A stretch of DNA of 64,000 bases, taken from Climacium dendroides (lineage: Eukaryota; Streptophyta; Bryopsida; Hypnales; Climaciaceae). Shown here piece after piece: positions 14,236-48,075 of the stretch. The notes under the pieces are model-generated. The model searched no databases. It had not been told where the DNA came from and worked only from the letters and a program-made list of their open reading frames with translations. The DNA lies in NCBI GenBank assembly GCA_950106755.1, contig OX467092.1, positions 4,526,001 to 4,590,000 on the forward strand, read 5' to 3'. The position numbers were made by a program, and so were the translations under genes. The number at the start of each line of letters is the position of its first letter. Within the stretch, counting starts at the first letter, position 1.

Positions 14236-14639
14236 GCACCTCAACGTTGTGGCCAAGAAGACCATCATCCTCGAATCTCACTTCCGCAGGACATGGCAGA
14301 CATGCCTCATGTGGAGGTTCATCGTTGGGAGCCACAACCTCTTCTGTGCCATGCGCAAGGAATTCTGTGGGAATCCGGAATCCGGAAATAGATCAATAGC
14401 ACAAGAAGTAGGTGCGAAAAATAGAGAAAAATCAAAAAAATTATAGTTAGAGCGTGATTTTTGGACCAGATAGCTTGAATTAGAAAATAAGCGTTCCGGC
14501 ACAACTCGTAACTGGAACTTATCTGGATCCAGAATCCGGACTCATCCGGAACACAGGAACCTACCGTATAGGTCTCATAGCTACGGAAGTAGGATACCGT
14601 TAATACAACGGACCTGTAGCCGTTGTCCTTAAGTCCGTA

Positions 14640-14670
14640 AATAGACAGTTTAGTATTTAAGCTGTCTTCC
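14640..14670 (+). promoter_or_regulatory. TATA-like promoter of the LTR-type element
   Basis: AGTATTTAAGCTG is kept in all three copies of the family (A here; C near 41855; B on the minus strand near 48575) while the flanks vary. It lies about 145 bp upstream of the reading-frame ATG at 14797. Conservation between diverged copies supports a core promoter role. Confidence 0.5.
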
Positions 14671-14796
14671 TAGGGTTTTCCTCTTCACTTTCCTGTTCTG
14701 TGTTCCTGAGAACTGTTTGTGTGAGTAGTTGAGAGAAAGAGTGGTGAGTTAGCGACTGAAGTAGAACTACTTTTCCCTCGTTCTCACTTAGATCTT

Positions 14797-16746: not shown

Positions 16747-17718
16747 GGTTGTAGGAGAAGAAGTATAGGATCCGGAACGGGGTTCCGAGCATAGACCCGG
16801 TTTCCGAAATCTTAGGCGGATAGTCAGGAAATCCGACAATCTCGGACGGCAATTAGCAATCTTTCCGGATATCCCAGGAGGTTCAGAGATTGGTGGCCTG
16901 GATTTCCGGGTTTCCTTTTCAGGCTTTTAGGAGTTGACTTTGGGTTTTTGTGTTAGTATTTTAAGGGCAGGCAAGTTAGTTGTCTGCCATTCCATCCTAC
17001 TCCATTCGATCTTAGTGCTTTCACATATGTATTACGATTTCCTTTTCTTAATCTAAGTTAGCCAGGGTGCTTCTAGCTGCACTTTGCTTAGACGGAATCT
17101 TTGGCTCAGTGTATGCATGTATGTTTGTATCCTTGTACTGGAGAAAGAGAAGGGAGGGAGAGGAGGAATCCGGATCTTGAGCTACGGACCATCTGGGGGT
17201 GCAGCTAGTGAGAAGGAATGCAAGCCGAGTAAGGGAGTGTAAGTGTGACGTGCTTTTAATTTACCGGAACGGCAATCCGGATAAGACGGTAGAGGTCCCT
17301 GCGAGTCCGGAACCAGGAGGGTTCTGTACGGAGTTAAGCAACCGCCAAAGGAAAGGATCTCCCGCTACTTCGGAAAGTCTGCCAACCTCCCCTTTGGTAA
17401 ATTGTCTTCTCCTTGAGATTCTATTCTTTTGGGTCTATAAGTTCTGATCCGTCGTTGTAGTAAGAGAGGTGTGAAAAGTGCTCTGTGTGACCTGATTCCG
17501 GATCGACCAATCCGAAAACTGTGAGAGAATACTCCTCCCTCCTCCTACAACTGTGTTGTCTTGGGTGTGTTGTTTAGTAGATTTAGAATACAGAGAGGAT
17601 AATTGTATAAGTGGTGAGTCCCTACCTCTTTCTAGATCAAGGGCGGACCCTCTGAGGGTAAAACAGAGGCAACAAAAACCAGTGACGGAAGAGAGACGAA
17701 ACTCAGATCCAGGTGTAT

Positions 17719-19838
17719 CCGGTGTCGCACTGTAAATGCGTACATAGTGTAAAAAAGTGTGGTAATGTTTTATTTCTATTGATTTGGTTTTCACGAATAT
17801 GAGGAGAATAATGACATCATCTTTAGTGGCTTCAAGGTGACGCCTTCTTACGATGGCCTGAGTCATCTATATAAGATTAGGTTGTCATCTTAGAATTCCA
17901 TCAAACTTGAAGTAGTTTTCTTCATTATTTGTTATAGATTCAATATGTCGAATTGGAGGGTTTTTTCTGAGTCCCAAGATGAAATTGGAATTCTAGTTTT
18001 TTTACCTCTAATAGGTGTACGTTGAGTTTTAGTTCTTCATTCCATATTTGGAGTGAATTTCTATAATAATTTTGTGTTTGTGAAGTAGTTGTAAGGAAAT
18101 ATTCAAATGGTTTGCCTTCTAGGTGAACTTGAAGTAAATTTCCTTTAAAGATAAAGATAAGGAGATAGTAGTGGGGCCAAATAAGTGCTCAATTATTGTT
18201 AGAGGAGTTTTAAGAGTGAATTAGAGGCGGACCCCACTTGTTTGTGTGGTTGAGAGTAGATAAGGTAGAGGAAAAGTTGGATAGGATTCATCTTCTCTCC
18301 CATTGTGAGTTTAGGGAAAGACCCGAATGTTTGGAGGGCCATTGTGTTGTGGGTTTTTGGAATTTTGAAATGAAAATTGGTGGAGTTATGTATCATGGTG
18401 TCTTCTTTCTAAATGGATCTCACTTGCTTGATTTGGAGTTGTGAATCAAAAGTTGTGCTAGTTTGAGTGGAGGGAGGTTTGTTGCCTTCGAAATTAAGAG
18501 GTAGAGACTTCGACCGACCATAAAAGACGGACAGGTTCTTGGTTTGCATTGATATTTGGAGGAAGTGTAGGAAATTAAGTTAGCTTTCTAGGAAGATCTC
18601 ACTCATTCTATTTGGAGCTTGTATGAGTGAGTTACGAGTGTAGAAGTGAAGGAGTGTCTGCTGCCTATCATTTCTAGAGGCCGAAACTTTGAGTGGCCAT
18701 GAAAGGTGGACAGAGTGTTAATTTGATTTGAGTTTTGGAGAGGATGTGTAAAGTTTTGTTAGCTTTCTAAGAAGCTATCATTCGAAGTAATTGGAGCATT
18801 TATGAGTAAGTTGTGAGTGTAGGAGTGAAGGAGGGTCTGTTGCCCTCACTTGTAGAGGCCGAAACTTTGGATGACCATAGTTTTGGGTCAGAGTATTGGA
18901 ATGAGTTGAGATTTGGAGGAAATGGAGAGAATTGTGTTAGCTTTCCAGAGAGTTATCATGCAACCCATTTGAAGTTGTGAAGCAACGGTGGTGATCATTC
19001 AAAGTTTAGCTTTGAAGATGGAGTTGGGGTAGAGATTTGAAGTTGGAGTTTGAGTGAAAATTTGAAGTTGAAGTTGAGGTGGAGCTTTGAGTGATGATTT
19101 GAAGTTGAAATTTGAAGACACAAAGATTGAAGACTCGTGTGTTGTGGCTTGTGGCTTGTTATTCCTAGCCGGATTTGGGGGCTCGTTGTCTTTCTATGGT
19201 TATTCCCAGCCGGTTTTGGAGGCTAGTTGCAATTTTCAATTTCAGCATTGTGAAACTGTTGCGAGCCGTGGTTATCCAGTAAGCGCTCCATTTTGTGTTT
19301 GTGGAGACTATTTGGGATTTAATCACCCACTTGGTTGCTCTTTTATGTTGTTCCCATTGGTGAAAGGCGCTTCCTGGTCACCGTGGGTTTGAAAGTTTAG
19401 GGTCCCATCATCCGGACGGTCACTCATGTTGGCTGTCCCGTTTTACCCGTCCGAGGCCGTGGGATCTTATCACCTTACCCTTACCCTTACCCTTATAGAG
19501 CCACCACAGGATAGGCCAACGGGGAGGAGTTTGAAGATTGAAGATTGAAGATTGAAGATTGATGATTCGACGACCGTATACGAGATTTGAAGACCAAGAT
19601 TAGAGATTCACGAGAGACAAAAATTTTTGTTGTTGTACAATATCATTTTGTATTTGACTGGTGAATTTGTGGGTGACAAGTTCACTCACCTTCATCATTC
19701 TAGTTAGAAGACTGGGTTTGCAAGTGACAAGTCCACTTGCCTTTATTCTCCTATCATATTTTTATTCCTTAGCCATTTCTAGTTGCAGCCAGAATCTTTG
19801 TGATTTCCTAAGGCAAACCGCTCTCAACACGACACCGG
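17719..19838 (+). mobile_element. 2112-bp TGTCG...CGACA element (probable solo LTR), 4-bp duplication CCGG
   Basis: The insert 17723-19834 begins TGTCGCACTG and ends CAACACGACA, flanked by CCGG at 17719-17722 and 19835-19838. Copy B of the host element has the uninterrupted site (a single CCGG in the matching place near 43397). TG...CA termini and lack of a transposase suggest a solo LTR. The interior has no credible gene. It has repeated 'GAGTGAAGGAGTGTCTG...GAGGCCGAAACTTT' blocks (18600-18900), a short CCTTAC run at 19475-19495 and GAAGATT repeats at 19530-19560. A related start, TGTCGTGTTGTAAAT, is seen on the minus strand at 51697. Confidence 0.75.
18600..18950 (+). repeat. Imperfect tandem ~180-bp blocks in the solo-LTR-like insert
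   Basis: Phrases such as 'GAGTGTAG(A/G)AGTGAAGGAG(T/G)GTCTG', 'GAGGCCGAAACTTTG' and 'GTTAGCTTTCTA(G/A)GAAG' recur about every 180 bp between 18470 and 18960, with heavy divergence. Similar phrases appear on the minus strand at 49.5-50.2 kb. Confidence 0.5.
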
Positions 19839-20260
19839 ATCCGGAACGGAATCCGGATTGTACTAAGGTTCCGGAATGAGATAGGGTAAGTGAAAGAAAG
19901 AGGATTAAGTGAGTAGTCACGATCTGGATACTTCTAACTCAAACGATATCTTACTAGAAGTTCCCTGGAACGATAATTCGTGTCATCTTGCAACCATTTG
20001 TTGTTGTAAGGATACTTACGGCTAACTGCGCGTACGACAAATTCCTCCAGCAACGATTTTGGAGCAGCGTAGAGAGGAACATCATTGACACACATCAAAC
20101 CCACGACTACGACATTCAAGCCAGACAATGCTTTGTGAGAGAAAAAATATATTACAAAAGCTCATTAAATGAGAAAATGTTACATTACATACAATGGACT
20201 AAGAAAATTGAACCTATCTGCTAGTCGCTACTCTACACTATCCACAAGAACTCGGAAGAA

Positions 20261-20283
20261 TTTCAACTCGTACCGAGTTGAAA
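20261..20283. repeat. Palindrome AACTCG-TAC-CGAGTT downstream of the methyltransferase-like gene
   Basis: TTTCAACTCG-TAC-CGAGTTGAAA, 10-nt arms, lies about 105 bp beyond the stop of the ParB/methyltransferase-like gene. It belongs to the palindrome family described at 24363-24947 and 33755-34479. Confidence 0.85.
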
Positions 20284-21309
20284 TGAAGGCTGAGGGAGTC
20301 ACAGGGAACAACCTGGAGGCATACTAGTCACAGGGCCCTGTGACTGTTGGCCCTCTATTCCATCCGCGGTTCCTTGCTCATCTTCTAACTATGTGGCAGA
20401 ATCTGGTGCAGTGTCGACATTTGCATCTCCCTGTGCTCCAGCATCCATCAACACCAAGTTCCGCTCGATCGGTGCAGAGCTGGTTGACACATGCGCCATC
20501 AAATTCTCCGACATGGTCGGTACAGATGGGATGACTGGAGACGCAGCCCGCGCTTGCCTAGCACTATCCGCTGAGCCATGTGCCTGATTTGCGATCATGA
20601 GTTGGGGAGACATAGCAGCCGAGTCCAGCATCATCATCGGTCTTGCAGACATCATTTTGCTCACGACCTCAGGCAAGACATCGATCAGTTGAGCGATCAG
20701 TTGATTGCTTTCCTGCCAAGACCGCTTGTTTTCCGCCCTCATCTCCTCTCGCTCTTCCTGCCGTTTCCTTTCCTCCGATTCATTATTCTTTTGGATAATA
20801 TCCAGGATCCATTGTTGACTAACCGGAGCATCAGACGGTGGCGGATGCGCTTTCTTCTTCTGGGAGAGGCGAGTACGCGAGATCGGCGTGTGAAGTTCTT
20901 GGGCCGATGAACTAGATGATCCCCCCATCTCACTGGTTTCAAGATTCAACGCCGCTGCACCAGGTCTGTCAGCGCTCAATTCCAATACACTGTCGATGGG
21001 GTCGACCCATTGTGCCTCCTCATCATCGTCGATCTCTACAAGGTCAATCTGATCATCTCCCCGAGACTGATCAGGAATCCTCTGTTGGTATTGTCGCGCA
21101 GATTCCTTCCCCTTTCTCGAGGTTGACGCTTCTTTGCCCCGAGTAGATGGCGCAGGCCTTTCATTCCTTCCATCGAAGTCCTGGTCGTCCAGGAAATACA
21201 CAGACTCAAGGAAATCATCCTTGTCCATGTTCTCAGAATCGACGCACAAGGAAAGGAACTCATTCTTCTTCTTGCTATCACCAACAATATAGTGATCCAA
21301 CGATAGCAT

Positions 21310-21432
21310 CTGTATACAACATACAAGACTGTAGTCAGCACAACAATTTCCACTCGACTCGAGTTAAACTCGATTCAAAATTGCTGGTACACATAATGAT
21401 AAGAACATGATTTCGTATGCACACACACTTAC
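21310..21432 (-). other. Intron with palindrome
   Basis: GTAAGT...ATACAG intron of the methyltransferase-like gene. It carries CACTCG-ACT-CGAGTT plus an extra AAACTCGA half at 21351-21374, close to the acceptor side. Confidence 0.8.
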
Positions 21433-22771
21433 CCACGCAGCACATGTGAGTTTGCCTCCCGCGAAATACGACAACACAACATCCCTCGGGCAAACGAACA
21501 GGTCTAGCACATTTAAATAGAACTCCATTCGAAGTTCTGTGTCGTAGATCCTGTACTCGACTTCCACTGTTTGCCTCTTAGCGTTGTAATGCGATTTTGG
21601 TGGTACCGAAAATGATTGCGGAATTTGGCGGTTCTTCATGGCCGCCCCATTCTTCACAAGGAAGAGTAGCTGAATAGGATCCCTCGCGCGACTGCTCCTC
21701 TTAGGAATGTCGCCTATCCTTTCGAAGTTGGACGGTTGATAGTCGGCATAGTGTTCCGAATATCGGCGTTCTGATGAATCCGCGGAGTTCCAACTCCACG
21801 TCCTTGTCTCCTGTGATCCAGAGATACACCTGTGGATCGGTGAGGTCGTTCTCTGGATCTTCTTCGAGAATTCCCATGAATTTCTCGAAGAATGAAGAGT
21901 CCTGCGCGCTTGAACCCCTATTGATGACGCCGGGGATGTTTCTGAAGTCGATGATCGCCATCTTGATCTTCGACTGCACTTCCTCATCCCAAACATTCGC
22001 ATCCCAATGGCCGAGCTCGTCGTCCTTCGTTTCGTAGGGCCGGAAAAAGGCGCTTGCTTGCAGCTTTATGAACTTCCCCTTGCTCTCTAGGAAGACCTTG
22101 AAGAACTCCTTGGCCATGGGAGACAGCTCATCGATTGTCTTCTTCTTGTTCGATGGCATCTTCATTTGAGTGAAGAATGTCTCCCCAGGCCCTGTGAGTA
22201 GCGTGTTCATCGTGGCCTTGGTAACGTTATAGTCACGCTTGAAATCCTTCCAAGCTTTCCTCCTGGAGTTCCCGTCGTTGTCAAATAGCCGGAGCTTCGA
22301 GTCAAAGTGGTGAAGCTGAATCCTCACAGCGGCTTTCCTCTTCATTCGCTCCAGCCAGTCCTTTGCAGTGTAGCAATCAGGGAGAACTGACTTTGGTGCC
22401 TTCATAACAACTTTTGGGTGACCGTGTGCCCGATTCTTCGTCCTGAAAAGGAGATGTAGGGCAAGCCTCCTCAGGTCATTCTCGGTGACGTTACCGATCC
22501 ATTTGAAAAACTCCCGAGATATGACTCCATCCTTGTCCGGGTCCCAACCCTTGACGTCCTTGAACGCCATCAATGAGTCGGGATCGATGAGACCCCCTTG
22601 GGACTGACTTGAAATGACCTCGGTCCAAAGGTCATAGACATCCTGAGACGTAGTAATGAGTTTGATCTCATTGTGAATGTCAATGTCTCTCTGGTTCTTC
22701 TTGCCGAGGTAGCCCTAGTTCTTCTTCACATCAATCATAGAAAACCTAAGCTTGATAACGGTCTTGAACTC

Positions 22772-22906
22772 CTGCAGTTCATACATGTCATATTCAGTTT
22801 GTCAATGAGTGATCTTAACTTGAGGCGAGTTAAATATGCAGAAGCACAGACAAGGACCAAGAAATAAACGTTTTAACTCGGCTCAAGTTGAAGTTCATGA
22901 ATTTAC
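22772..22906 (-). other. Intron with two palindromes
   Basis: Intron GTAAAT...CTGCAG containing AACTCGGCTCAAGTT at 22872-22891 and AACTTGAGGCGAGTT at 22814-22835, each one base away from the perfect AACTCG-NNN-CGAGTT form. Confidence 0.8.
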
Positions 22907-24362
22907 CGCAAACAGTCTCTGATTATAGCCGTCTGCCTTTGTCTTCTTCCCACCAGTTATCATCTTCCTAAGCTCTGTGGGCTCTCTTGGTGGAGTTGGA
23001 CTTCCCATACTTGTCCACACAGACCTTGATGCAAGAATATTGGTGGACCATGTTGGCATGAAGATCTGGAAATGGTTCACCCGATTATAGTATGCCGAGA
23101 TTTTCCTGATGACATTGTCATCTTTGTTCCAAACCACAAAACAGTCCCACTTTTTGAACTTCGCCTTTTTGTCATCAGGAATTTGCTCCATCCCTTGCAT
23201 TCGCTGAGACGCTGCCACGCAATGTTGGCCATTCACCATCCAGAACTTGGCGTCCTTGACATCGTCAAACCTTGTTGGCCTTGTCTTTACTCCTTGGGGA
23301 TAGGCGCAGAGGGTCATCTTCTTGTCAGGGTCGAGCATGTTCACCAGGAAGTTCAACGCCCTCAGTACACCCTTCTCTTCCAATTCTCGAATGTTGAGAT
23401 TTTGAGGTGGCTTCTCCAGCTGGTCTATGGAAATCTCAAACTTTTGACCAATCCCTTCGACGTACGATTCCGTGCATGCAGACCAATAATCGGAATACGA
23501 TTTACACGCCACCTCGTAGTCGATGTCCTTTATGTTTCCGCCGAGGTCCTGTGGAATGTCTACAATCTCGGATGACAGACTGCTTTCAGGTACTAGCGAT
23601 GTCCTTCCTTTCAAAGTTCGGGGTTTTGGCGTAGTAGACGGAGACCCTGACGGATCTCCTCGACTGAATCGCTCGGTTTGTTTCAGACGTGTGTGGCTTC
23701 GACCAGTCTCTAGTGTTACAAGCACGAGGGATCCATGGCTGGGCTGGTTGCTGTAATCCCTCGTAAGTGAGACTGGCTGCAGTCTGTCACTCTTGCTTGC
23801 TAGTGATGTCTTGAAATTACCAAACCCGTTGATGAGTGAATTCACCCTCGATGCCAGTGTAACTGACTGCAGAGGGCCTCCATCTTTGTTTTGCCACCTC
23901 TTCTCCTCTAGCTGCTTCTCAATAGTCTTTTGCAGCGCTTAATAGTCTGTGTTTTCCAATGTCTTGTAGTACGCAGACACGGAGAAGGAACACTTCCAGC
24001 TATTCACAACGTAGGAGAATATGTACTCCTCCGTTTGGTTGGGGTCGACGGTTTTACAACAAATGAAGAGCAAGCCATTTGGACCTGTCAGGACCTCCCG
24101 CATAGCCTCCGTTAGTGTTACGGGGAGGTTGTCTTCCACTTTCTTGTATTTGGTTTTGAATGACAGGTGTTTCGTCATGGGAACAAGGACAATAGTCCAA
24201 TACTCAACTTCATGGGGTTCTTGCCACTCCCAACATTCACCGAGCATGTCGGCGTCGCCGTACTCGTCGCGGTCTTCTTCAGGAATGGAAAACCGCTTCA
24301 GGTACACCTGCAAACCGGAAACCTGTGCGTCCATTCCTGCAATGGTATCACACAGTCCCAAC

Positions 24363-24947
24363 TGTTAACTCGACTCGAGTTAAATATTATTTAGTCATAA
24401 ATGTATTTTCAGGAGCATGGTGGTTTGCTTGACATTCTGCGGGTGAAGTGTGTTATTGATGTTACTCATTTAGTTCGATGCTTACCGTTTGCATTGTTTT
24501 TAACTCGGGTCGAGTTAAGCATTCTATTTTGATAAGGTTTGAGTTGTTCTTGTCTTCCTAGGAAAATAGTTTTTTTTACAAGTATGTTATCTGTCGGATT
24601 GGATTATTTCCGGAGTTCTATATTTGGTCTTGTTATGTATGTGAATTCAGTATTTACTCACTATTTCACTCGAACCGAGTTAAATAGATTCGGTTACCAA
24701 ATTAACCAATGGAGGTTTGCCGTTGGCATTTAACTCGGCTCGAGTTAAACTTGTCGTCAGGATTGGTTTGCAATATGTTTCTGGGCTTTCTTCATCCACA
24801 GATTACATCGTGCATGGTCATTACAGTCAAGTCGCGTACAATTTTAACTCGAATCGAGTTAAAATCTAGCGATGCTTTGAAAGAAAAGCTTCTGAATACC
24901 TAGTTATCGAGTTAAACTAGCATCGAGTTAAATTGCTTCGTGTTAAA
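24363..24947. repeat. Palindrome cluster upstream of the ParB/methyltransferase-like gene
   Basis: Copies of AACTCG-NNN-CGAGTT (usually inside TTTAA...TTAAA) lie at 24363-24386 (spacer ACT), 24499-24518 (GGT), 24664-24685 (one arm CACTCG), 24728-24750 (GCT) and 24841-24864 (AAT). Half-sites continue at 24906-24947. The outer sites abut the 5' acceptor of the first visible exon. The 3-nt spacer varies while the arms are kept, which points to a protein-binding or recombination site rather than plain duplication. Confidence 0.9.
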
Positions 24948-24959
24948 CGTACATCGTGA

Positions 24960-25590
24960 TTGGTTTTAGGGTTTAGGGTTTCTACTGGATTTACTTTGAT
25001 GTGTGAATTGAATGGGTTCAAACAGTTGCACACAATGAAAATTGCAATGCCACAAAAACTATGAATTCAATGCCACAAATCTAAAAGCTCAGAAATTGAG
25101 AATGCAGATGCACAACAGGATTGGAATGAAAGAAGGATTGCAATAGAAGGAGGATTGCAATTCTAGACCAATTCTGTACGAGCTAGAAATTTTACGTACC
25201 TACAGACTTCAATTCTATACGACTGACAAACAGGAACAGAAACCCGAACAAGCTTAGACACAACAACTCCCAAAAATCTGAAAGCAGAGCAGCAATGGAA
25301 TCCCAGAAACCCTAAACGCTGCGCCCTTTACTTTGCTCTGTGAATTGAATGGATTCAAACAGTTGCACACAATGAGAAATGCAAGGCCACAGAAACTATG
25401 TATTCCATTCTACAAATCTAAAAGCTCAACAACTGAGTATGCAGATGCACAGCATAATTACAATGAAAGAAGGATTGCACAGCAGGATGCACAGCAGGAT
25501 TAGAATGAAGGAGGATTGCAATGAAAGTAAAATTCAGTACAAGGTAGGAATTTTGCATACCAGGAACAGAAACCTGAAGAAGCTCAGATG
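24960..25590. repeat. Tandem duplication, ~345-bp unit, with telomere-like start
   Basis: The block starting near 24985 (TTTACTTTG, then GTGTGAATTGAATG and GTTCAAACAGTTGCACAC) is repeated near 25327 with modest divergence. AAACCCTAAACGCTG-type tracts lie at the unit edges (25308 and 26255) and GGGTTTAGGGTTT at 24968. There is no coding potential. Confidence 0.7.
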
Positions 25591-26206
25591 GGTAAGTGTA
25601 CACTAGACCCTTGTACTTTTCATGTCACAATTCAATTTTCTCAAAGAACGTGGTTTTCTACAAGGTGTTATTCATATTTAAAGGTCGTTTTTACAACTTT
25701 TGTTTTATTTTTCTAGATGCTAGATATGTCTAGTTTGCATGTGCATTATAAGATTTGTTGAAAAACTTCTTTGAGTGTGTTAAATTTGTACTTTTGTGAA
25801 TTATTTATAAGAAGTCACAGTCAATTTTGTACTACAATCATGTGAAAAAGTACAAAATTTTTGGTCTTAGGAAACTTCAATTTTGATTTCCTTTCTCTAG
25901 AATAGACATCAATAGATCTTCTATTAGGATTTATTGTTGAATTTACAATCACATCATTCTTGTAGCAAAGATCTAAAAAAATAGTATTATTTTAGTTGGG
26001 AATGGATAAGTTGGTGAAAAGTGAGCAATTTCAAAATCAACTCTAAGATTTTAGATTCTATTGGCTAGTTCTAGAATGGCTAAGTGATGGAATTTGAAAT
26101 TTTTGGTTTTTCCACCTTCTATTTCACTTTCTTTAGTAAATTTGTACTTTTAAAGTACTAAAATTTTGCCAAAAGTGTATGGGATCTAGTGTACTTTCAC
26201 CCAGAT
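25586..26206. mobile_element. 613-bp inverted-repeat element with 4-bp duplication AGAT
   Basis: The ends are GGGTAAGTGTACACTAGACC (25590) and, on the other strand, GGGTGAAAGTACACTAGATC (26202). AGAT flanks both sides. The interior is AT-rich and non-coding. It sits in the second unit of the 345-bp tandem duplication, whose first unit is uninterrupted. The superfamily is unclear. Confidence 0.65.
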
Positions 26207-26619
26207 GCACGAACTCCAAAACATCCAAAAACGGAGCAGCAACGGAATCCCACAAACCCTAAACGCTGTGCCCCCACAGAACTAGACACGAGCTGCACAC
26301 AGGAACTCCAAAACGGAATCCAACAAACCCTACACGCTGCCTCTCCCCACGAGCTTCACACACCCTAAATCCAAATCGGAAACTCGCCAACTACTGACCA
26401 GTCGCCGAAACGTGCCACCACTCGCCGACTGAAAACAAGACTACGCAAATCCAAATCGGAAGCTCGCAAACTGAAAACAGAAAACAAGACTACGCAGACA
26501 CAAATCACAACTACTGACCACTCGCCAACTACTGACCACAAATCACACAAAAACTCTCTCATGCAAGCATGAGCTGGAACAACAGCGCATTTCGAAGAGG
26601 CTAGGGTTCCAGCGCGCGG

Positions 26620-26705
26620 ACGAAGGAACTCGAGTTTCGGGGAGGCGTGCAATCTGTCCCGGACGAAGAACTCGGGTTTCGGGGAGGCGTGCAATCTGGG
26701 CCCTC
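26620..26705. repeat. Direct repeat, ~40 bp, two copies
   Basis: GGACGAAG(GA)AACTCG(A/G)GTTTCGGGGAGGCGTGCAATCTG occurs twice in a row, ending near 26660 and 26700. Confidence 0.75.
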
Positions 26706-26709
26706 CATT

Positions 26710-28740
26710 GCAATTGATCATTCAGATTGATGATTGCTGTCTCCAACGCATTCAACCTCCAAATTTGGCATTAATGACATGTTGGTTATGGTAATGAAGT
26801 TGCTGATTTGGGTTTGGGGCATGCTGATTTTTAATTTTTTTAATTAATTTCTTTGACACAAACGGTAGGAGGTCCATACATGGATTTTCTAAGGATCTAG
26901 AATTGAAATTAGGGTAGGTAAAACATCTTCAAATTTTTTTCAATAAATTTTTCCTAAAAGACAAGTAGAATTCACATCTAACCCAAAATGTTTCATATTT
27001 GGGGGAGCTTTTTGTAATTAGTTATTCAATTTTGCAATTGAAATGGCATAGGGCTCCAAAATGGCTCACCTCCTACAATGTACATTTTTGGAACATTACT
27101 AAGGACTATGGAAAAAAAAATGTACAAATAGTGTACATTTAAGAAGGTGGGCCATTTTAGAAAGAGTGCTATTTTAGGACCTCATACCTTAGTACATTTC
27201 ATCCTGAAATTGTCAATATCATAACTCTAAACCCCTCATGTATTTTCATAAATACATGTTGTATACTTCATATATCACATTTCTTTATGGGATTCTTAAT
27301 ATTTCATTGATAGTCATCAATATTGAAAAGGTATGACAAAAATTACGATACGATTTGAAGCTAGTGAAACAAATTATAAACTTTATCATCCCCACATTAC
27401 TAATTATTCAATACACTCTATTCCTACTACAATGTGCTTGAAGATTCTTGAATGTTCTTTTCTTCACATCTTAAGAGTACCTTTTCTTTATTGATTCTTA
27501 CGAAATTTAATCATATAATACCAAATGTCCTCACTCTTTACAATTCCATCTTATAATTAATTTTTACTATTTGTGTGTATATATTAGGGTTCAAGTGAAA
27601 TCTAAAATGAACTCATAAATGCCAAAGGCACCCAAATATGGTGTTTGCAAAACTTTGAAGTTAAATAAATCTTAACCAACTTAGTACTTTTAGTAGTTAA
27701 TATTTTTGAATGTTCTTCTTGAAGTCTAGATTTACCTCCAAAAGTCTGATCTTGAAATTAAATGACAATGATTTTTCTATAAGAGATTTTGTGCAAGAGT
27801 ACCCTGCGTAATCTTGACTTTCTTAAGTGTTAAGAGCTCTTAGAAATGAGCCTCAAATTATACAGTACATCTTGGAGAAAAAATCAGATTCTAAATTCAT
27901 TTTAAAATGTTGTAGAGAGAATTTCAAGAAGTCGTAAATTCATTCGGGTTCTTCAAGTAAGGCAAGTGAACCTCCAATTTTTTTGGTCATGGACTTTTTA
28001 GATTTCACTTGCAAAAAAGACTTCAATTGTTTTTTGCTATTTTAGCACCTTCATAATCAAACGTTATAATCTTTCACTCCATAAGTGATATTGTTGTACT
28101 TTTTTTTCACGTGAATTTCATGACTTTATATTGATTTGGACATTAAAGGACAGGGCAAGGTTCTTGACCCCATTTTCTTTATTTCACGTAGAAGGTCATT
28201 CAAAGTGACCACCAATATCATATTTTTTTGAATGCTTGAGTTTAGGATTGATTGCAACTTGGACAACATGTTTCCCATTTTTTTTCACATGAATGTCCAC
28301 TATTATATAGTTTTGGACATTAAAGTACAAGGCAAGGTTCTGGCCTTCATTTTTTATTTCACATACAAGGTCATTCAAAGAGACCAACAATTGCCTACAT
28401 CTGTGTCTAAATTCTTGAGTTTATGAGTGATTGCAAGTCGAACAATATGATTTCCTTTTTTTTAAAATGATTTATTCTATTGACGATATACTAGGGCTTG
28501 GATGCTATTGCAATATTTTCAAAATCAAATTATTCATGCTCAAAGTAGAATTCAAAAAGATCCTTCCAAAAATTTAAACTACCAAAAATAGCAATCAAGT
28601 AAGGGTTCATATAACTTCAAAGTTCTTTACACACAACATTTTGAAAGAACATGCTCAAAGTAGAATTCAAATTTTTTGAATTCCATTATTTTTTTGTTTT
28701 GTTTTCACTCTTATTAATATTGTATTCATTCTTATTAATA
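26710..28740. other. AT-rich intergenic DNA, no gene seen
   Basis: About 2 kb with no supported exon. One imperfect ~180-bp duplication is visible: 'GACATTAAAG(G/T)ACA(G/A)GGCAAGGTTCT' followed by 'CATTCAAAGTGACCA' near 28140-28210 and again near 28315-28385. Confidence 0.5.
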
Positions 28741-28751
28741 TTGTTTTCAAG

Positions 28752-29223
28752 ATGCTCCATCCAGACATAGAGGATGGGCTTATTGTTAGAGAAGTTGGCA
28801 CTCGCCATGGCATTGACAAAAACACCCCTTTGTCACAAGGATTATCTTCATCATGTGGTGCATACAATGTTCCAGAACTCCCAGTCTTTATTGATGACGA
28901 CGTAGGAGAAATTGGTATTTCTAATACTGAAGAAGAGCCGATGGTCTTCAAAGACAAAGATCCCAAAGTGTGGGGTAGTTCGGCCTAATCCTCATGTTCT
29001 TTTTGAAGACCTATTGACATTAGTAGATGAATATGATTTGCATGATCACCGGATAGCCGATCTTCAAGCCATTCGAGGGAAGTATAAGAGTATGGTAGCA
29101 CGAGGGGTTGCCAATGTTGGAGCATTCAATAGTACTTGGTCTTTCCCTGAATTGCTTGGTGATAACAGTTTGATACGTCGCAAAGGATTCTTAGAACCGA
29201 AGTCCAGGAAAGTTCAAAAGTAG
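28752..29223 (+). pseudogene. Fragment of an unrecognised protein gene, one frameshift
   Basis: The frame opens with MLHPDIEDGLIVREVG and runs to DPKVWG near 28975. The neighbouring frame then takes over with VVRPNPHVLFEDLLTLVDEY and continues to a stop at 29221-29223 (RKVQK). Codon usage and a continuous sensible protein across the shift suggest a single-base indel in a real gene or a gene fragment. No family is recognised. The DNA around it is AT-rich with no other exons. Confidence 0.4.
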
Positions 29224-30440
29224 CATGTCATTGATACATGGTAGGTAAAGGTTTAGCCATTTAATTGTAGGTCTACAAGTATTATATGTCAACACTATTT
29301 AGAAAAAATGAAAGAATATGTTCTTTTGAAATTTTTGAGTAATTTAATGCCTTAGATTTCTTTATGATTTACATTCTTATAATCTAAAGACACAAATAAT
29401 CCTACATGTTTTAATTTGCAATGCCATGGCACAAATTAGAGTGTTTGAATCTTATATTACAAGCATTATGAATTTGATTTTCTCTTCTATTTTGTATATA
29501 ATTGAAGTTAATTATTTTAAAAAATAATAATAATAGAGTTTCTATTCTATTGATTTTTCCAAAATTTAAATGAATTTATTGAATACAAATTTATCACAAT
29601 TCAAAATTCTTAATACAACAAATTTCAATTAACTCACAAATGACCAAATAGGTTACTTTGGATTTTCTGAGAACTTGTGAGTCCTCTATTGGTTTTATGA
29701 TTTAGAATCTTTACATGAATTTCATATAGTGGATGTCATTCATTCAAATTTATACGTGAAGCTTTGTTTCATGTCATTCCAAAAAAATTTCCAGAAGTCT
29801 TAAGTTTAATTTTTTATGTTAAAATTGGGTAGTAAAAAATTTATTTCAAAAGAAATATTGTATGTTTTTTTAATTGCATGAAATGATACTTTCTCCTCAA
29901 CTTCTAAACCATTTAATTTTTAATTATGGAATAGAAGTTATGATTGTATACATTGATACCTACACCTAACTTTTGAACCATTTAAAATTTTAATTATGAA
30001 ATAAAAGTTACAAAGAGTTTCATTTTGCAAAAAAGGAAAGGTCTCTAAACCTTAAGAATACTCAATTTCAAGAGTTGCCAATATGAATTCTCAATTCCAC
30101 AAAGCTTCAAAAAATATGCAACAACTTGGACCAAATGTCAATTCTCCTTGTCTTTCAAGGAAAATTTACTGAAAAATATTTCAAGATGTTTCACCTCCCT
30201 AAAATTCAGTTCCAAACCTTAGATGGTTGACTTATGAACTTCGTACCTTAATTGGTGAGTTCAGTTCTGTACTAAGGAATGGACCAGTAGTAGGAGTTGG
30301 GCTAAGCGAGACGGAGTTGCTGCGCGAGAGGGAGTGGAGGGAGTGCAGCCGGGTAGGAGTGCAAGCCGGGCAGTTGGTCCTGGTAGGAGTGCAAGCTGGG
30401 CAGTTGGTCCTAGCAGCCTGGCCAGGGCCCATTGCCTGCC
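29224..30440. other. AT-rich intergenic DNA, no gene seen
   Basis: No supported coding exon or inverted repeat was found. The final 200 bp turn GC-richer, with a duplicated GTAGGAGTGCAAGC(C/T)GGGCAGTTGGTCCT at 30352-30410. Confidence 0.5.
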
Positions 30441-30444
30441 ACAG

Positions 30445-30475
30445 AGGCCCCCCTTTCTCTCGAAGGGGGGTGTTT
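30445..30475. mobile_element. Isolated element end matching the 30550-31935 termini
   Basis: CCCCCCTTTCTCTCGAAGGGGGGTGTTTAAC has the same order (C-run, T-rich spacer, CTCGA, G-run, TGTTTAAC) as the right terminus at 31905-31935, and faces the left terminus at 30550. Between them lie only 74 bp, including AAACCCTAAACCCTAAAC. Confidence 0.6.
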
Positions 30476-30549
30476 AACGTCGCGCAAACCCTAAACCCTA
30501 AACAATAGCTGGTCAATCGTAATCGGAACTGAACCTGCAAATGTCGGAC

Positions 30550-31935
30550 GTTAAACACCCCCCCTCAAGCAAAAAGGGGGTTCTGGTAGACACAGTGGGC
30601 CCCTACTTCTCCTCTGTTCCCTCTGTCCGTTCCCTTCGTCTTTTGCCTTCGTTCTTCCTTTTCTCCTCCCTCTCTTGCTCCCTTGCTTCCTTCCTTGACT
30701 CCTATCATTTAGCCACAGGTTTCTTTAGCTTCAACCTCATGTTTTTGCCTTTATCCCCTAATTGTCCAAGGCATCGAATTTTCGCGTTTCAAATATTGTG
30801 ATGTTGAATAAAGCCTTAAGAATCAATTTTCTTTTCCTATGTGATTTCTAACGTGTTTAGTTTGAATTGTACAGTTACAATTCAAAAAAAATTGATTGAA
30901 CTTATCAAAATGTTGGCTTTTGTTCAATTTCAAGCAAATCTCGAGAAGCTAAAAACAAGCCTTAAGCATTTAGGATTAAATGTTTTCTTTTGCATCAAAT
31001 GTTTTATTTAAAATTTCATTTCAAATACTTCTTAAGCACCATTCATTCCAAAAGCATGGTTATAGTCTTCATCAATATTTTTTTAAAACAAATTCAACCA
31101 TAGGATTCTTTGGTTAACTTGTTCAAGTACATTGTTCTAAGATTATAAAATGACTTTTACTACCAATTGCAAGTTCAATGTCCTAAAAGTTAAATTTAAA
31201 TGTAGGCTTCACTAGCACTTCTAAAAGGTGAAGGCTTTTGTATTTCAACATTTTTAGAAAAGAAATATGTATGTGTTATAACTTGTCCATGTAGTCAATA
31301 TGTTGAAAAAGTCAATATGTTCAAAAACCTTCCAAATTTCTTTTCACATATGAAATCTAAAAAGTTGGTCACCCCCAAAATATATGAGGTTATAAGGCCC
31401 AACATGCACAACCCCAATCAATTTATGGCTTTCCAAAATCTATTCTACAATTTTTGAAAATGAATTTCTTATGTGATTTTATTTCCACAATCTAGTGTAT
31501 TTGAGGCTCATTTCCAAGAACCCTCAATACTACGTGAAGTCAAGATTGAAATGGGTAGCCTTGCGCAAAATCTTGAATAGAAAAATCATAATCATCTATT
31601 TTAAAAATCGGATTTTTAATGCTAAAATGAAACTTCAAATATAGTTTTGCAAAAAAATAAACTAATAGAAATAGAAAGTTGGTTAGGTTTTATTTACCTT
31701 TACAATATTTGAAACTTGAAAATCTGGTGCCTTGAATGATTAAGGGTTAAACACAAAGACACAAGGTTGAGGTTGAAAACATCCGTGGCCAAAGGATAAG
31801 AGTGAAGGAAGAGAGCAAGGGAGCAAGAGAGGGAGGGAGAAGAGGAGGAGCCAAGGCAGGACAGCGAAGGGAACGGACAGAGGGAACTACTAGGAAGAGC
31901 AGGCCCCCCCTTTTGCTCGAGGGGGGGTGTTTAAC
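30550..31935. mobile_element. 1386-bp element with GTTAAACACCCCCCC inverted ends
   Basis: Left: GTTAAACACCCCCCCTCAAG. Right, on the minus strand: GTTAAACACCCCCCCTCGAG. Homology extends inward through the poly-pyrimidine 'CTCTGTTCCCTCTGTCCGTTCCCTTCG' stretch (30610-30645) and its mirror (31860-31890). A left flank AAATGTCGGAC and right flank AAATGCCGGAC (4 bp off the end) may be an imperfect duplication. The interior has no gene. The superfamily is unknown. Confidence 0.65.
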
Positions 31936-32570
31936 CCTTAAATGCCGGACCCATGACCATTGATTTCAAGCCTTAGTGCCCATCACTTATTTTTCTTCCA
32001 TTCTGCAAGTACATATACATGAAAATTTTTATATTTATTTCTTAGAGATGAAACTACATGTCTTCTTTAGATCACAAAAAATTTAGATTTTTTTGGAGCA
32101 AAATTGATTTTTTTGATAATTTCTGAAGAAAAAGTGAAGACAAATCATATCAAATAGAATATTAGTTAAAAAAATCCAAAATTTTCACCATGTGTATATA
32201 TTATAGTGATAAACATCATGGTGTAAACTCAATTTCCGTGTCATCCTATAAATAGAATTCTATAGAAATTGAAAATACACCCAAAGTTCATTGGAGTAGA
32301 AATTAATGTACATGACCTTCGTTTCACTAGTTCAGCTCAAACTCAGAAAACAACATTTTTGTAGAGAGATTTCATATTTAGAGCAAGGAACCACAACTTC
32401 CCAAAATACACTGACTGAAATAGCATATTTTGTAATCCATTTTTTTACTTAATCCTCAACTACATACCCACAAACACTAGTTAGACTAAAAACTCAATTG
32501 GATACTCTTTGTAACTCAACATGAAAGATCAACAACAAGAAGTGGATGAAAAAATGCTTCTCATTTCTCT
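31936..32570. other. AT-rich intergenic DNA, no gene seen
   Basis: No supported feature was found apart from general AT richness. Confidence 0.4.
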
Positions 32571-32574
32571 TGAG

Positions 32575-32660
32575 AACCCTAGACTGTCATTCAAACCCTA
32601 GACTGTCATCCAAACCCTAGACTGTCACCCAAACCCTGGACTGTCATCCTAAACCCTAAT
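32575..32660 (+). repeat. Tandem 19-bp telomere-like repeat
   Basis: Four to five copies of AAACCCTAGACTGTCATCC with small variation, ending AAACCCTAATCC. The AAACCCTA core is that of the Arabidopsis-type telomere repeat. Confidence 0.8.
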
Positions 32661-32724
32661 CCTATGCAATTTGCACTGGCGGCATTCCAAGGTTAACGTC
32701 CAGCCCTGCAAATTGCATAGGATT
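32658..32724. repeat. Perfect 18-bp inverted repeat (foldback)
   Basis: AATCCTATGCAATTTGCA at 32658-32675 is mirrored by TGCAAATTGCATAGGATT at 32707-32724, with a 31-bp loop. It lies directly after the telomere-like tandem repeat. Confidence 0.9.
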
Positions 32725-33754
32725 CTTCCTTTTCTTTTCCTGAATTCGACAAAACAGTCAATTAATATCGACATTTGGTTCTGGAAATAGGAGCTTTTTT
32801 GCGTAAAAAAGTTATACTGGCGACATCGAGCTAAATATTCTTAAGTAGCTAAAAGTGGAAGATTCTAGGCTGTCAGAAATTAATAAATGCACTTGTCAAC
32901 GGGAACAAAAGTGCCGGCGTATTTCTATTTGCGGTTCATGAGAAACATTTGAAAATCCCGCGCCTTGTTCCCGGGATAACCTTTGCGTAATGCGTTTAGC
33001 GGCAAGAGTGTTCCTCTCCCTTTCCCTCATGCGAACTTCCCATTCTCATTTCCGCTGTCCACAATCAGAATCCTCCCTTAGACAGAACTTTCCATTGTCA
33101 TTTTCGCCGTCCGCACTCATACACCTCCCTCACGCACAGCTCCCCGTTGTCATTTTCGTCGCCTGCACTGAGAATCCTACATCTCTTTTCGTAGTATGCC
33201 ACACACTCGATCTAACAAAGGTCATTTTATTACGTCTTTACTAGGACAGTAAGTAGGCATCTTTGATTTTCGTAAGGGTCATTGGCGACAATTCATTTGA
33301 TTGGATTCCGGGTTTGGGTACGCAATACATGTCCCTCAATCTCTCTTCATTTTCTTCCAACAATCGTTTTGTTTTTTCCATCAAGCATTGTCATTCTATC
33401 TCTCATGCGGCCTCTCTGACAATATGCTCCGCGTATCTACAGTGCACATCATTTGAATTTGTGTCTTCTGAATTTTACGTAATCCAGTTGTGGGACAGTG
33501 GAGAGTACGCGGATTTCATAGGGTGATTGAAAACGTCTTGTTTGCTGCTTGTAATTTTCTGTAGATTTTGAGGTCTTTCAGTGTTTTCATTTCGGATATG
33601 GGACTTATTGCGATCAACTCGGCAAGGCTCTGCGTCACATTCCATGGTTAATGGTCTAGTTTGTGGAAATGAAATCCCCGAATACTCGCCGCATTTTTAG
33701 GATGATCACTATATAACGTAATATGAGAAACCTCCGTGAATTGCGGGAACGAAC

Positions 33755-34479
33755 TTCCACTCGACCCGAGTTAAAATATGAGTACATCATTCGACGAGAA
33801 TCGTATTACAGGAGGAATTTCAACTCGACCCGAGTTAAACTATTAGTACATCATTCAACGAGAATTGTGTTACAAGATGAATTTCAACTCGACCCGAGTT
33901 AAATCATATGGGAGGAAATGATTTAATCTCACTTCTACCTGGTAGAGGACAAAAGTAACTGTAAGTTTGGGTTATACGAATAGAACCGTTATTTTCTATT
34001 TAACTCGAGTCGAGTTGACTTTGTTTTACCTTTAGGGCATGGTGTCTTGTTTCAGAAATGAATTCATATCTATGATCATATGGAACCATATGAACTTTGA
34101 TATTCAGTCAGCCATGAAATTCTGCAATGTCACATTGTATCTAATCGTACAAGTACTTTATCTCGTATCGAGTTAAATGTTGAAGTATATTTTAGATAAA
34201 ATTCTTCTCGCGAAAGGTATCATGTGCTCTCAATCCTAGTTCATTTAACTCGAATCGAGTTGATAATTTCAGGTGGCATATTCACTCTCTTCAAACTGAT
34301 TTCTTGATTTACTGACCTGAAATAATCTATTACTGATTTCGTCCGTAGGATATTTTAATGTTCTGTATATTTCGCCCTCGTAAGATCAATCATCGATGCC
34401 CTCTAAGTTAACTCGATTCTAGTTAAAGCTCAGTATCTTACAAGGTCGTTACTTACAGTTAACTTGAGTCGAGTTAAGT
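33755..34479. repeat. Palindrome cluster upstream of the DUF7869-like gene
   Basis: Eight sites of AACTCG-NNN-CGAGTT or near matches: 33755-33777 (ACC), 33817-33839 (ACC), 33881-33904 (ACC), 33998-34019 (AGT), 34157-34178 (arm ATCTCG), 34243-34263 (AAT), 34406-34428 (GATTCTAGTT half) and 34457-34479 (AACTTG arm). The first three sit in a ~65-bp tandem repeat (AGTACATCATTC(G/A)ACGAGAAT). The cluster ends 80 bp before the ATG at 34561. The same family flanks the ParB/methyltransferase-like gene. Confidence 0.9.
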
Positions 34480-34560
34480 ATATTCATCCGCACGGTCATA
34501 TCAAATGATTCAATATTAGTATCCATGTTTAATAAGTTGTTAATTTCACGTAGAGTTGAG

Positions 34561-37390
34561 ATGGCTGCTCGCGATCATCCTTTTCAGGAGTACTCTTCTG
34601 ATGAAGGAGAGATTGAGATTGATCCAATACAAGACATCGTCATTCCAGATTGTGACGGTATCCCTCGAAGACTATGGATCACGAAAATTGTTGTCCTCCA
34701 CAACTCTAATGGGGAAGTGGTTGCTGAGGGAATCTGTCATAGCGTGAATTCCAAACATGTTGTAGGTAGCAATGGTCCCCTTGGAGACTCGCTTGTCGCT
34801 GTTCAAATATCCAAATCGCTACGGCCTACTGAAGTTCCTGAAGACTGGAAGTACTCACTTCGTGCTTGGCCCATTGACCGGGTGTTTTTAAATGGGGCTA
34901 GCCTTAATGACCACGAGATTCGAGACCAATATAATCGTCTACAAGCAAGACTGTCACAGGGGTCCTCCTCAAGTGCAAGACCATACGCAAGCTCCGTTAG
35001 GATTCCTCCGCCTCAGGTTCCTGTTAGAGCATACACTCTACTTAGCCAAGAGTCTATCAATTTAGTATCGAGCAAGACGTGCTGCCCTAGAAACTGTGTC
35101 CAACCTTTTCCAAGAGAAAAGATTCGGGCTTTCCGTGAACGTATGTACCACAAGAAAACCTTTGAATTCCGATACCACATGAAGTTGGACGTTCATCGAC
35201 AAGTTCACCGTAATGCTCAGGGGAAGAGGGTGGTCACTCTCGAAGGGATTGATGTTTGTATGGCAGCATGGCGACATATTGCAAGTGTTTCCGAATCCAC
35301 CTTCCACCGTTTCCAAGGATATGCTGCAAGAGGTGAACAAGCTCAACCACATGGAAATTTGGGAACGCAAAAGGCTCGAAAGCATTCTTTGCAAGCCCTT
35401 GCGACATTGAAGTGTGTGCTTGAGAAGTCAGCTGACCACATGCCGCACCGCACGCACACCCTTTCGTCTGGGGAGAAGGTGGTGTCTAAGATTCTACCCG
35501 CCACATTCACTTGGAAAAATACGCTACCCGAGGTCAACGCAGCAAATGCTATGTTTGGGTTGAAAGAAGTTTCTCCATCGAATATTTGCAAAATTCGGAA
35601 ATTAAATTTTCCTGAATACTCACTGAAGAAACCCGGAGATAATTTCGCTCATTGCTCTGATTGTGATAGATATCATGAACAAAGAAGAATTGCCCCCATT
35701 GGATTACGACGGAAGTGGGACCACCTATTGGAAAAACACAATGCTTGTGCTCGAACTCATCGAGATCTATACTATGCCAATCGGTACAGATCGAGCGCCT
35801 ACCCTCATGAATGCCTTACGATCATGCATGATAAAATGGATCATGCAAAAACGGCATCTCCTGTGTTTTCACACAAAAGCAAACAACTTGACGGCCTCAC
35901 AAAGTTGCCGGTATCAGTGACCGGAATGATTGCTCATGGGCACGGTGACGTCCGTTATGCTCATTACGGTCTTGATATCTTCTTACACGACTCTAACTAC
36001 ACGGTGGGGTCGTTTGCAAAGCTATTGCGAGACCTTGAACTTCCTCCAAAGTATTCCTCCCGGGAGTTGTTTGTTGGATCAGGCTCAGCTCCATTATTTG
36101 AAGCAATGTTGAAAGGGTCTGAAATGTGTACATCGTCACTTCGGCCACCGCCCGAAGTCCCTATTGCAGCCGTTCCCCTTCCTCCAATTTTAAACGTTCA
36201 AATGGACAATGCCACTGGTGACAACAAGAATCGTTGTCTTTGCGTTTTGGTCCCTTTTAGTAGCAAAGAAGATTTTCTGGGAGATTTACGTGAATTTCAT
36301 GTTAGTTGGTCATACACATGATGACATTGATGCTTTGTTTGGAAGATGGAGCATGCAATTGAAGAAAGAAACTTTCCCTACCATTCCAGCTCTCATGAAA
36401 TCCTTCATGGATGTAGATTCTGTGCCTACAATTCCACACTTGATTGAGGAGGTACTTGATTTCAAAGCCTTTATAGAAGGCTCCATTTTGGAAGGGGACG
36501 AAGCACTTGTTGGCCATACAAAGGCACAACAATTCAAGTTCTACCTCAACTCGGCAGGTGTTCCAATCATGAAGTATAAGAGGTATTGTATGGATAGTGA
36601 TTGGCTTCCAGAAGAGGGGGGAATCAAATTGTGGCGAGAAGATTCTGAAGGATGAAGTCTATGGCCTCGTGGTGAGCCCATCCCAGTTGACTACGTTCCC
36701 ATGCGGGGCGTGGAGGACAACTCAAAAGGGATGTCAGGGTTCATCAAATATTGGGAGGCATTATGCAACGAAGACGAGAGTGGAGAGTACAGGAGATGCT
36801 TCGAGCATTTGTTGTTCTATTGGGGTGCAGTGAAAGCATGCTTGGTGCAACCTATAGTACCATTCGAGACGTTGAAGGATGGTTTCTGGCCTTCTACACG
36901 AGTGGAAGCCATTGTAGAGGACGAACTTGATGACAATGGTGACGTTCGTGAAGAATTTGCTGAGGACGATGTCTTTGTGGGGCAACGCCGTGATCAGCCA
37001 TTGCCATCTTTCCGAGTGGGACGTGATGTTCAGAAAGACTTTTTTGTCGCCCTTCGACCGGCTGAAGGTGATACAAAGCCCGTTTGGATTGCTAGAGCTT
37101 TGTCTGACCCATTCACAAATCCGGAGCATCCAAATTGTATCCTGATTCAGTATTTTCGGCCCACGGCAAGAGGCCAAAATGTTCAAGACTTTTACACTGG
37201 TTGGGACTCTGCGAAGGGATTGCGTTGGAAAGTGGACGAGACCCAAGAACCTATTTGGGAAGATACGAATTCCCTCATTATAGCATGGAGGTCGAAGGTC
37301 AAGAAGGACACAATAGAGTGTGTCCTTAGAATCCCTGCAGCACAAGTTCATGTCATCAACGGGAGTTTGTCTTCGTACAATTCCGATTGA
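34561..37390 (+). pseudogene. DUF7869-like, transposase-like gene with one frameshift and one stop
   Basis: ATG at 34561 follows a possible TTTCACGTAG acceptor. About 940 codons run to a stop at 37388-37390. N-terminal acidic region; a Cys pair in CCPRNC (about residue 175); CSDCDRYHEQRR (about 365); then a likely RNase-H/DDE-type core: MHDKMDHAK (first Asp), YGLDIFLHDSNYTVGSF, VQMDNATGDNKNR (about 550, second Asp) and GHTHDDIDALFGRW (acidic pair after His). The 'DN..GDNKN...GHTHxDID' signature matches the DUF7869 family, seen in transposon-like genes of invertebrates and algae. After GDNKNR the frame must shift (near 36235) to reach VFAFWSLL and GHTHDDID. TGA at 36653-36655 (CGA to TGA would fit) interrupts before SLWPRGEP. 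The gene is head-to-head with the ParB/methyltransferase-like gene and shares its palindromes. A transposase role is inference. Confidence 0.6.
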
Positions 37391-47939: not shown

Positions 47940-48075
47940 TTGTCCATCTGATTCCACCATTTCAACCGTCCATTTGATCCGTCCATTTGATCCATCCATC
48001 ATTCCATCTAAGCCATCCATTTGATCCATCCATCATTCCATCTAAGCCGTCCATCTGATCCATTCATCTAAGCTG
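47940..48075 (+). repeat. CCATCCATTTGATC-type short tandem repeats
   Basis: Runs of CCGTCCATTTGATCCATCCATC and ATTCCATCTAAGC recur between 47940 and 48075 inside the CACTA element. They are non-coding. Confidence 0.65.

Follow-up and report, generated by a model that had tools for sequence, protein, structure and literature searches.

A giant two-gene DNA transposon of the moss Climacium dendroides carries an array of palindromic sites around its DUF7869 transposase and accessory genes

Accessory genes of the ParB-methyltransferase kind are already known from algal transposons. The closest described element is Sola1-1_Ec32 of Ectocarpus, which is 21.5 kb long and carries, on the strand opposite to the transposase, an accessory gene with ParB-like and DNA methyltransferase parts; similar proteins are cited for green and red algae, and nested inserts and broken copies are described for giant families in general, according to the available part of PMC12477816. 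Here we describe a giant DNA transposon of the moss Climacium dendroides, located in a 64,000-nucleotide stretch that we call the window (contig OX467092.1; C41:4526001-4590000 in our genome search), in which a plus-strand DUF7869 transposase gene and a minus-strand accessory gene are accompanied by palindromic sites. The new element resembles Sola1-1_Ec32, as far as the available text describes it (PMC12477816), in being a giant DNA transposon whose accessory gene lies opposite the transposase gene and has ParB-like and methyltransferase-like parts, but differs from it in the lack of motif IV, the fused NIF phosphatase domain, the DUF7869 transposase and the moss host. A private palindrome array is present here and is not mentioned for Sola1-1_Ec32 in the same part of that source (PMC12477816). 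A limited literature search for a ParB-methyltransferase transposon in moss gave bacterial work only, and a limited one for DUF7869 found no mention of it; the moss host, the NIF fusion, the DUF7869 partner and the palindrome array make the element a variant distinct from the known cases.

The bacterial ParB-parS and KorB operator systems also have palindromic sites, several per element, and ParB-parS serves partition. Our element shares with them a ParB-like box and several palindromes; unlike in ParB-parS, no ParA partner was noticed. The VANDALs of Arabidopsis are Mutator-like elements. In VANDAL21, the motifs bound by the accessory protein VANC lie within introns of VANC21 and VANB21 and ahead of VANA21, and VANC acts to remove silencing, as given in the available parts of PMC5735166 and PMC10398659. 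As with the VANC targets described there, a sequence-specific motif array lies in noncoding parts of its own element, densely in the accessory introns and upstream of the transposase gene, and both arrays show tandem repeats and fast-changing surroundings (PMC5735166, PMC10398659). The likeness drawn here is one of layout, and the VANC21 motifs described in those parts stand in one orientation, whereas ours are palindromes.

Ends, target duplications and copies of the element

The sequence-only reading had proposed a large two-gene DNA transposon, and this was borne out by termini, target duplications and several copies (Table 1). To find the termini, we screened the DNA flanking both genes for inverted repeats accompanied by a target duplication. 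Their score was reached by 2 of 300 dinucleotide shuffles, and a 17-bp exact match by none of the 300. Candidate terminal repeats around one gene by itself did not exceed shuffles, and the presence of two separate elements was ruled out by copies in which the same termini enclose both genes.

We examined seven copies including that of the window, five with both ends (window, E14, E23, E29 and E51) and two with one terminus each (E09 and E32). The 16-bp terminal inverted repeats are exact in the window and E14 and have 1-2 mismatches in E23, E29 and E51; in both E23 and E51 the left end, with two mismatches to the repeat, was picked from two candidates. A 4-bp duplication flanks all five copies with both ends located (ACTT in the window, ATCG in E14, AATT in E23, TAAT in E29 and AAAG in E51). 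As expected of cut-and-paste transposition, the repeats enclose both genes and the duplication has a fixed length and a sequence that differs from copy to copy. Elements of the Sola superfamily make 4-bp target site duplications, and the length of the duplication seen here agrees with that.

Free of nested inserts, the element measures ~20.5-20.8 kb, and copies E14, E23 and E51 are 20,771 bp, 20,528 bp and 20,552 bp long. Both genes and the palindromes travel together as one element. The two genes noticed in the window are indeed there, but both are broken by stops and frame breaks, the accessory gene also by a nested insert, and the window copy of the transposon is dead. Among the copies examined, a whole transposase frame exists in E23, and a fully open accessory frame was found in none.

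With regard to the nested inserts, a 98% copy of the 611-bp one adjoins E23 (C1 ~23088448-23089060). The 5.67-kb TG...CA element has a second copy in the window at 43198-48867, with ~90% identity over the longest common part. Each of the two is flanked by a 5-bp duplication (AATTC for the nested copy, CGTGG for the other), and long terminal repeats were found in neither.

Table 1. Features of the transposon in the window
Feature	Position	Strand	Remarks
Whole two-gene DNA transposon	11053-38216	.	27,164 bp; copy E14 aligns over 11052/11053-38216 at 95-96% identity
Target site duplication ACTT	11049-11052, partner 38217-38220	.	4 bp
Left terminal inverted repeat AACATCATATTCATTA	11053-11068	+	16 bp; 0-2 mismatches in other copies
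Right terminal inverted repeat	38201-38216	-	16 bp; 0-1 mismatch in other copies
Accessory 3' exons with NIF/FCP1-type phosphatase domain	12576-14365	-	open reading frame 12866-13936, further homology 12576-12776
Nested element	14366-20039	+	5,674 bp; TG...CA ends; duplication AATTC; in accessory coding exon; absent from E14
Palindrome	20265-20279	.	downstream of exon 3; probably intronic (intron 3)
Accessory exon 3	20389-21309	-	end of methyltransferase-like region; acidic, coiled part; TAG 20389-20391
Intron 2	21310-21431	-	one palindrome
Palindrome	21351-21365	.	in intron 2 of accessory gene
Accessory exon 2	21432-22771	-	degenerate methyltransferase-like; in-frame TAG 22715-22717, frame break ~21720-21790
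Intron 1	22772-22906	-	two palindromes
Two palindromes	22817-22831, 22875-22889	.	in intron 1 of accessory gene
Accessory exon 1	22907-24334	-	N-terminal part and ParB/DGQHR-like box NGQHCVAAS; in-frame TAA 23939-23941
Six palindromes	24367-24929 (starts 24367-24915)	.	directly 5' of first accessory coding exon
Second nested insert	25591-26201	.	~611 bp; missing in E14, E23, E51 and further copies
Eight palindromes	33758-34475 (starts 33758-34461)	.	before DUF7869 ATG at 34561
DUF7869 transposase gene	34561-37390	+	frame break ~36240, TGA 36653-36655 in window

Sequence, placement and genomic distribution of the palindromes

About 18 copies of AACTCG-NNN-CGAGTT had been noticed around the two divergent genes, and exactly 18 are present at ≤1 arm mismatch. 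Allowing ≤2 mismatches gave 20 matches in the window against a shuffle mean of 1.56 and a largest shuffle value of 5 (0 of 100 shuffles reached 20). The site is wider than first described: pooling both strands, it reads TTTAACTCGA-N-TCGAGTTAAA, or AACTCGANTCGAGTT when written out in full, a palindrome of 21 bp with 9-bp arms and a 3-nt loop. Across the 18 sites there is no variation in the T at -2 or in several positions of the arms, and the only free position is the central base.

None of the 18 sites lies inside an exon, as had been remarked, though exons make up 76% of the two-gene regions; the DUF7869 exon holds one two-mismatch match, at 36548. Ten of the 18 are in or around the accessory gene. 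The site at 20265 exists but does not stand just after the stop of that gene as had been thought; it is probably intronic, because the gene is longer than first seen and continues to a NIF exon at 13936-12866. A 64-bp tandem repeat (33751-33903) bears three of the palindromes upstream of the DUF7869 gene, as if tandem duplication multiplied the sites. The palindromes nearest to the termini are ~3.7 kb from the right one and 9.2 kb from the left one (~3.5 kb minus the nested insert), distances that rule them out as transposon ends and leave their proposed use by the transposase, in the sense of end sites, unsupported.

The 9-bp arms, the 3-nt loop and the intronic position of some sites might suggest hairpins in RNA or single-stranded DNA. 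Arm mismatches are mostly one-sided, however, and paired changes or covariation do not rise above shuffles, on which ground a hairpin function was rejected and seems to us scarcely credible. Since one-sided changes are common and paired changes are not in excess, the palindrome looks as if it were read on double-stranded DNA by a dimer, and the pattern points to sites of a dimeric DNA-binding protein as the most likely nature of the array.

In the whole genome (412.6 Mb, 123 contigs) we found 882 exact palindromes, compared with 26 for a backwards-read control pattern, and the listed exact sites recur as paired clusters 8-12 kb apart. The first 50 listed of the 882, all on contig C1, were placed individually, with BLAST pieces of <150 bp or <80% left out. 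Forty-four map base for base onto window sites inside copies of the element, and 5 precede divergent DUF7869 genes by 0.4-1.6 kb (protein identity 60-88% over the longer matched pieces), where further imperfect sites are also present. Palindrome clusters without a link to the two gene types, which the sequence-only reading had named as evidence against itself, did not appear among these 50 places, with one lone site unlinked.

The distribution also bears on the idea that a host transcription factor binds the palindromes as enhancers of both promoters. A palindromic shape suits many dimeric transcription factors, and the sites cluster 5' of both genes; against this, 49 of the 50 listed places go with this element or with DUF7869 genes, and sites are also present in the first two introns and beyond the 3' end of exon 3, so that we regard such enhancers as improbable.

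Next, we compared the sites between copies, each of six against the window only and with pieces of <700 bp or <88% left out. The palindrome arms differ by 3.6% (45/1,243), the outer TTT/AAA by 1.8% (11/622), the spacer by 6.1% (19/312) and the DNA flanking the palindromes by 6.9% (475/6,859). The arms are slower than their flanks (p 4e-6, a statistic to be read with the common history of the copies in mind).

The two genes and their relatives

The plus-strand gene matches Pfam DUF7869 in the window at E 1.3e-25 and 1.2e-11, and its protein is predicted by modelling to adopt an RNase H/DDE fold in which a core with conserved acidic residues is present, which bears out the DDE-like transposase first suggested. 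In E23 the frame is open for 943 codons from the ATG. A diverged second DUF7869-like gene, of 66% DNA identity, lies just outside E23 (C1:23118235-23120500).

The accessory gene starts at 24334 on the minus strand and extends well beyond exon 3, where a NIF domain (13936-12866; Pfam NIF E 3.6e-14) had been overlooked. A tblastn search with the protein P0001 of the moss Ceratodon purpureus matched 13810-13211 and 12776-12576 in the window. When the nested insert is removed to restore the empty site, the frame runs continuously from the 20041 side into the NIF side; because of this continuity, and with E14 lacking the insert, the 5,674-bp element is placed inside a coding exon. The accessory gene of the window is thus broken by one TAA, two TAG, one frame break and the nested insert. 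In E23, exon 1 is open but for an early stop, and exons 2 and 3 are open, including the position of the exon 3 TAG of the window (20389-20391). Substitutions by codon position count 106/80/209 in exon 1 and 49/34/124 in the first part of exon 2, and this third-position excess indicates that this part was under selection in the past.

Two protein searches with the accessory protein found relatives only in Ceratodon purpureus, among them P0001 (E 4.6e-87, 28% identity). They number 16 proteins in total, one of which represents a cluster of 139 sequences. By locus tag, 9 of the 16 belong to U, 3 to V and 3 to autosomes and 1 is unplaced, which assigns 12 of the 16 to sex chromosomes. A NIF/FCP1-type phosphatase domain stands at the C-terminal end in most of the Ceratodon proteins. 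Within our set A4, 14 of 18 members match Pfam NIF and 10 of 18 match TIGR02251 (best E 2.2e-5). The matches to Pfam NIF and TIGR02251 liken this part to the FCP1/NIF (HIF-SF) phosphatases, whose usual motif is DxD; it differs from them in reading DLNG at that position and in being fused to a transposon accessory protein.

The claim of a ParB-like protein stood in part. Boxes of the ParB-N/DGQHR type follow G-x-(H/R)-R-x-x-A, and the accessory protein has a box NGQH(R/S/C)VAA, which is kept between the window and Ceratodon as NGQHRVAA in P0004 and, without the arginine, as NGQHSVAA or NGQHCVAA in others. Weak local profile matches to DndB and ParB accompany it: DndB at E 0.0058 (below the curated cut-off, in 1 of 4 members), over a stretch that includes the NGQH box, and the ParB-like PHROGs phrog_1033 (E 0.012) and phrog_723 (E 0.19), in 1 of 4 members each. 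The support comes from the box and these matches, not from a fold, and a PDB profile search with the ParB-like part returned unrelated weak matches only.

The methyltransferase activity proposed at first did not hold up as well. Beta-class DNA methyltransferases carry motifs X, I and II in that order, with motif I reading FxGxG and motif IV reading (D/N/S)PP(Y/F/W). By eye, the end of exon 2 and exon 3 resemble motifs X-I-II (ELRMEFYL...VVLSYFAGGKLTCAAWMLSLDHYIVGD), and the motif I region is alike (FAGGK/YAGTK). The second glycine is gone, however: the place reads FAGGK in the window and (A/G)GTK after Y or C in Ceratodon, so that FxGxG is not matched. Neither the window nor copy E23 nor any of the 16 Ceratodon relatives showed a DPPY motif IV; its place is taken by DLTDPQVYLWITGDKD in the window, DLTDLQVYLWIAGDKD in E23 and FNDVRHWLLICGDDED in Ceratodon P0001, reading GDKD (window and E23) or GDDED (Ceratodon). 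Searches of Pfam, NCBIfam and PHROGs up to E 10, whose filters drop weak matches, gave no methyltransferase family, and a search against PDB gave nothing useful. An active N6/N4 DNA methyltransferase that marks the palindromes could draw on the likeness of motifs X-I-II, on weak PRMT7 matches (E 0.23-0.31, beside an unrelated match at E 0.2) and on the Ectocarpus precedent; the replaced motif IV, the altered motif I and the lack of a family match speak against it and make it very improbable. The methyltransferase-like part is probably catalytically inactive, as judged from these motifs.

We also looked for the palindrome beside the relatives, using translated gene models that appear to overrun into noncoding DNA, in which a translated palindrome would read LTRxELN or FNSxRVK. 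Ceratodon P0010 has LARVELN directly before its first coding exon, P0001 has LARVNLN inside a retained intron 2, and P0050, an ENA protein related to DUF7869, has FSSIRVE followed by LARLELN in its leader. Outside the regions of homology, there are 2 hits at one mismatch in 198 residues against 0 of 2,000 shuffles, in a test devised post hoc; over all 132 proteins such peptides are not significant (2 against a shuffle mean of 1.2), and P0050 is modestly colinear with the window leader (a degree attained by 33 of 1,000 shuffles). If right, these peptides would mean that in other genomes, too, the site occurs with both gene families and in matching positions. The palindrome itself was found in no IMG/VR stretch and in 4 stretches of GTDB genomes, about chance by our own estimate; a related palindrome was found in 3 IMG/VR stretches. 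Neither the phage tblastn search nor the protein searches of viral contigs gave a match.

Further frames lie nearby. Ceratodon P0008 matches beside E23 (C1:23090508-23093489; 38% over NIF and 29% over the motif I region), where a second, diverged element may lie. The window holds a second NIF/FCP1-like frame (4194-4733, E 0.003), possibly another accessory gene of the same kind, and a DUF4216 match at 985-1473 (E 4.9e-7), which we take to be a domain of CACTA-type transposons.

Candidate readers of the array

Our preferred interpretation, which we consider reasonably probable, is that of a giant two-gene transposon that regulates its own copies, with the palindromes as dimer sites and the accessory protein as the best candidate to read them. 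The DUF7869 transposase would cut at the 16-bp terminal repeats and so give rise to the 4-bp duplications. The accessory protein, which combines a ParB/DGQHR-like domain, a methyltransferase-like region without motif IV and a NIF/FCP1-type phosphatase domain, would bind as a dimer to the palindromes in introns and upstream regions and thereby find the noncoding parts of its own copies. Once bound, it may sustain or restrain the expression of both genes, through anti-silencing or autoregulation, instead of forming transposition ends.

Several observations weigh against this interpretation, whose weakest links are the presumed ParB fold and the divergent DUF7869 loci at which no accessory gene was seen. 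The AlphaFold model of the accessory protein, with a pLDDT of 32, was too poor to show a ParB fold; the ParB-like profile matches are below curated cut-offs and come from single members, and rival weak hits are as strong (MHCassoc_trimer E 0.0027, the replisome organizer phrog_4880 E 0.031 and HAT_PRP39_N E 0.04). Besides its early stop in exon 1, E23 has one stop and one frame break in the NIF part. The substitutions in exon 3 (80/59/77) show no third-position excess, and in the DUF7869 gene (111/66/123 and 48/48/55) such an excess is weak or absent. Intergenic DNA of the element differs by 3.05%, compared with 6-7% around the array, and the arms are no slower than the former; they are slow only relative to their own unusually fast surroundings. 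Finally, one of the 50 listed sites (C1:12590651) is linked to neither gene in the 10 kb covered, and the divergent DUF7869 loci have sites with no accessory gene found in the flanks examined. As these loci carry sites, a host factor could also be the palindrome reader.

The same loci raise an alternative in which the reader is the DUF7869 transposase, for which the palindromes would be regulatory or assembly sites, and the accessory protein has another role. It would account for 5 of the 6 listed sites outside the element being upstream of divergent DUF7869 genes, and for the palindrome-coded peptides 5' of the P0050 gene. Yet 10 of the 18 sites belong to the accessory gene, none is near a terminus, and the Ceratodon accessory genes seem to carry sites too. 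The flanks examined at the divergent loci were moreover short (one of 9.5 kb and three of ~5 kb). Since ~9.4 kb lie between the DUF7869 sites and the start of the accessory gene in the present element, only the longest of these flanks extends far enough, and a neighbouring accessory gene could have been missed. Taken together, we judge the transposase an unlikely reader.

Returning to the accessory protein as reader, a possibility that we advance tentatively is a self-recognition resembling ParB-parS, in which a ParB-derived protein, methyltransferase-like but catalytically dead and fused to an FCP1-type phosphatase, would nucleate on the palindromes of the introns and promoters and counter the silencing of its own copies only, acting on chromatin or RNA polymerase II. 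Site and protein would then change together, because the translated leaders of the relatives in Ceratodon and on the ENA contig appear to show a shifted site, with GCTCG used instead of ACTCG.

These results put a two-gene transposon whose accessory protein is ParB-like into a land plant, together with a defined candidate DNA site. The suggestion made for algal transposons, that accessory proteins bind and mark their own element, becomes directly testable in a moss, and the accessory family is numerous in Ceratodon. The fusion to a NIF/FCP1 phosphatase offers a hint of how RNA polymerase II or chromatin might be reached. The array has its parallel in the VANC targets, although the two elements are apparently unrelated; self-recognition arrays would then be a solution that recurs.

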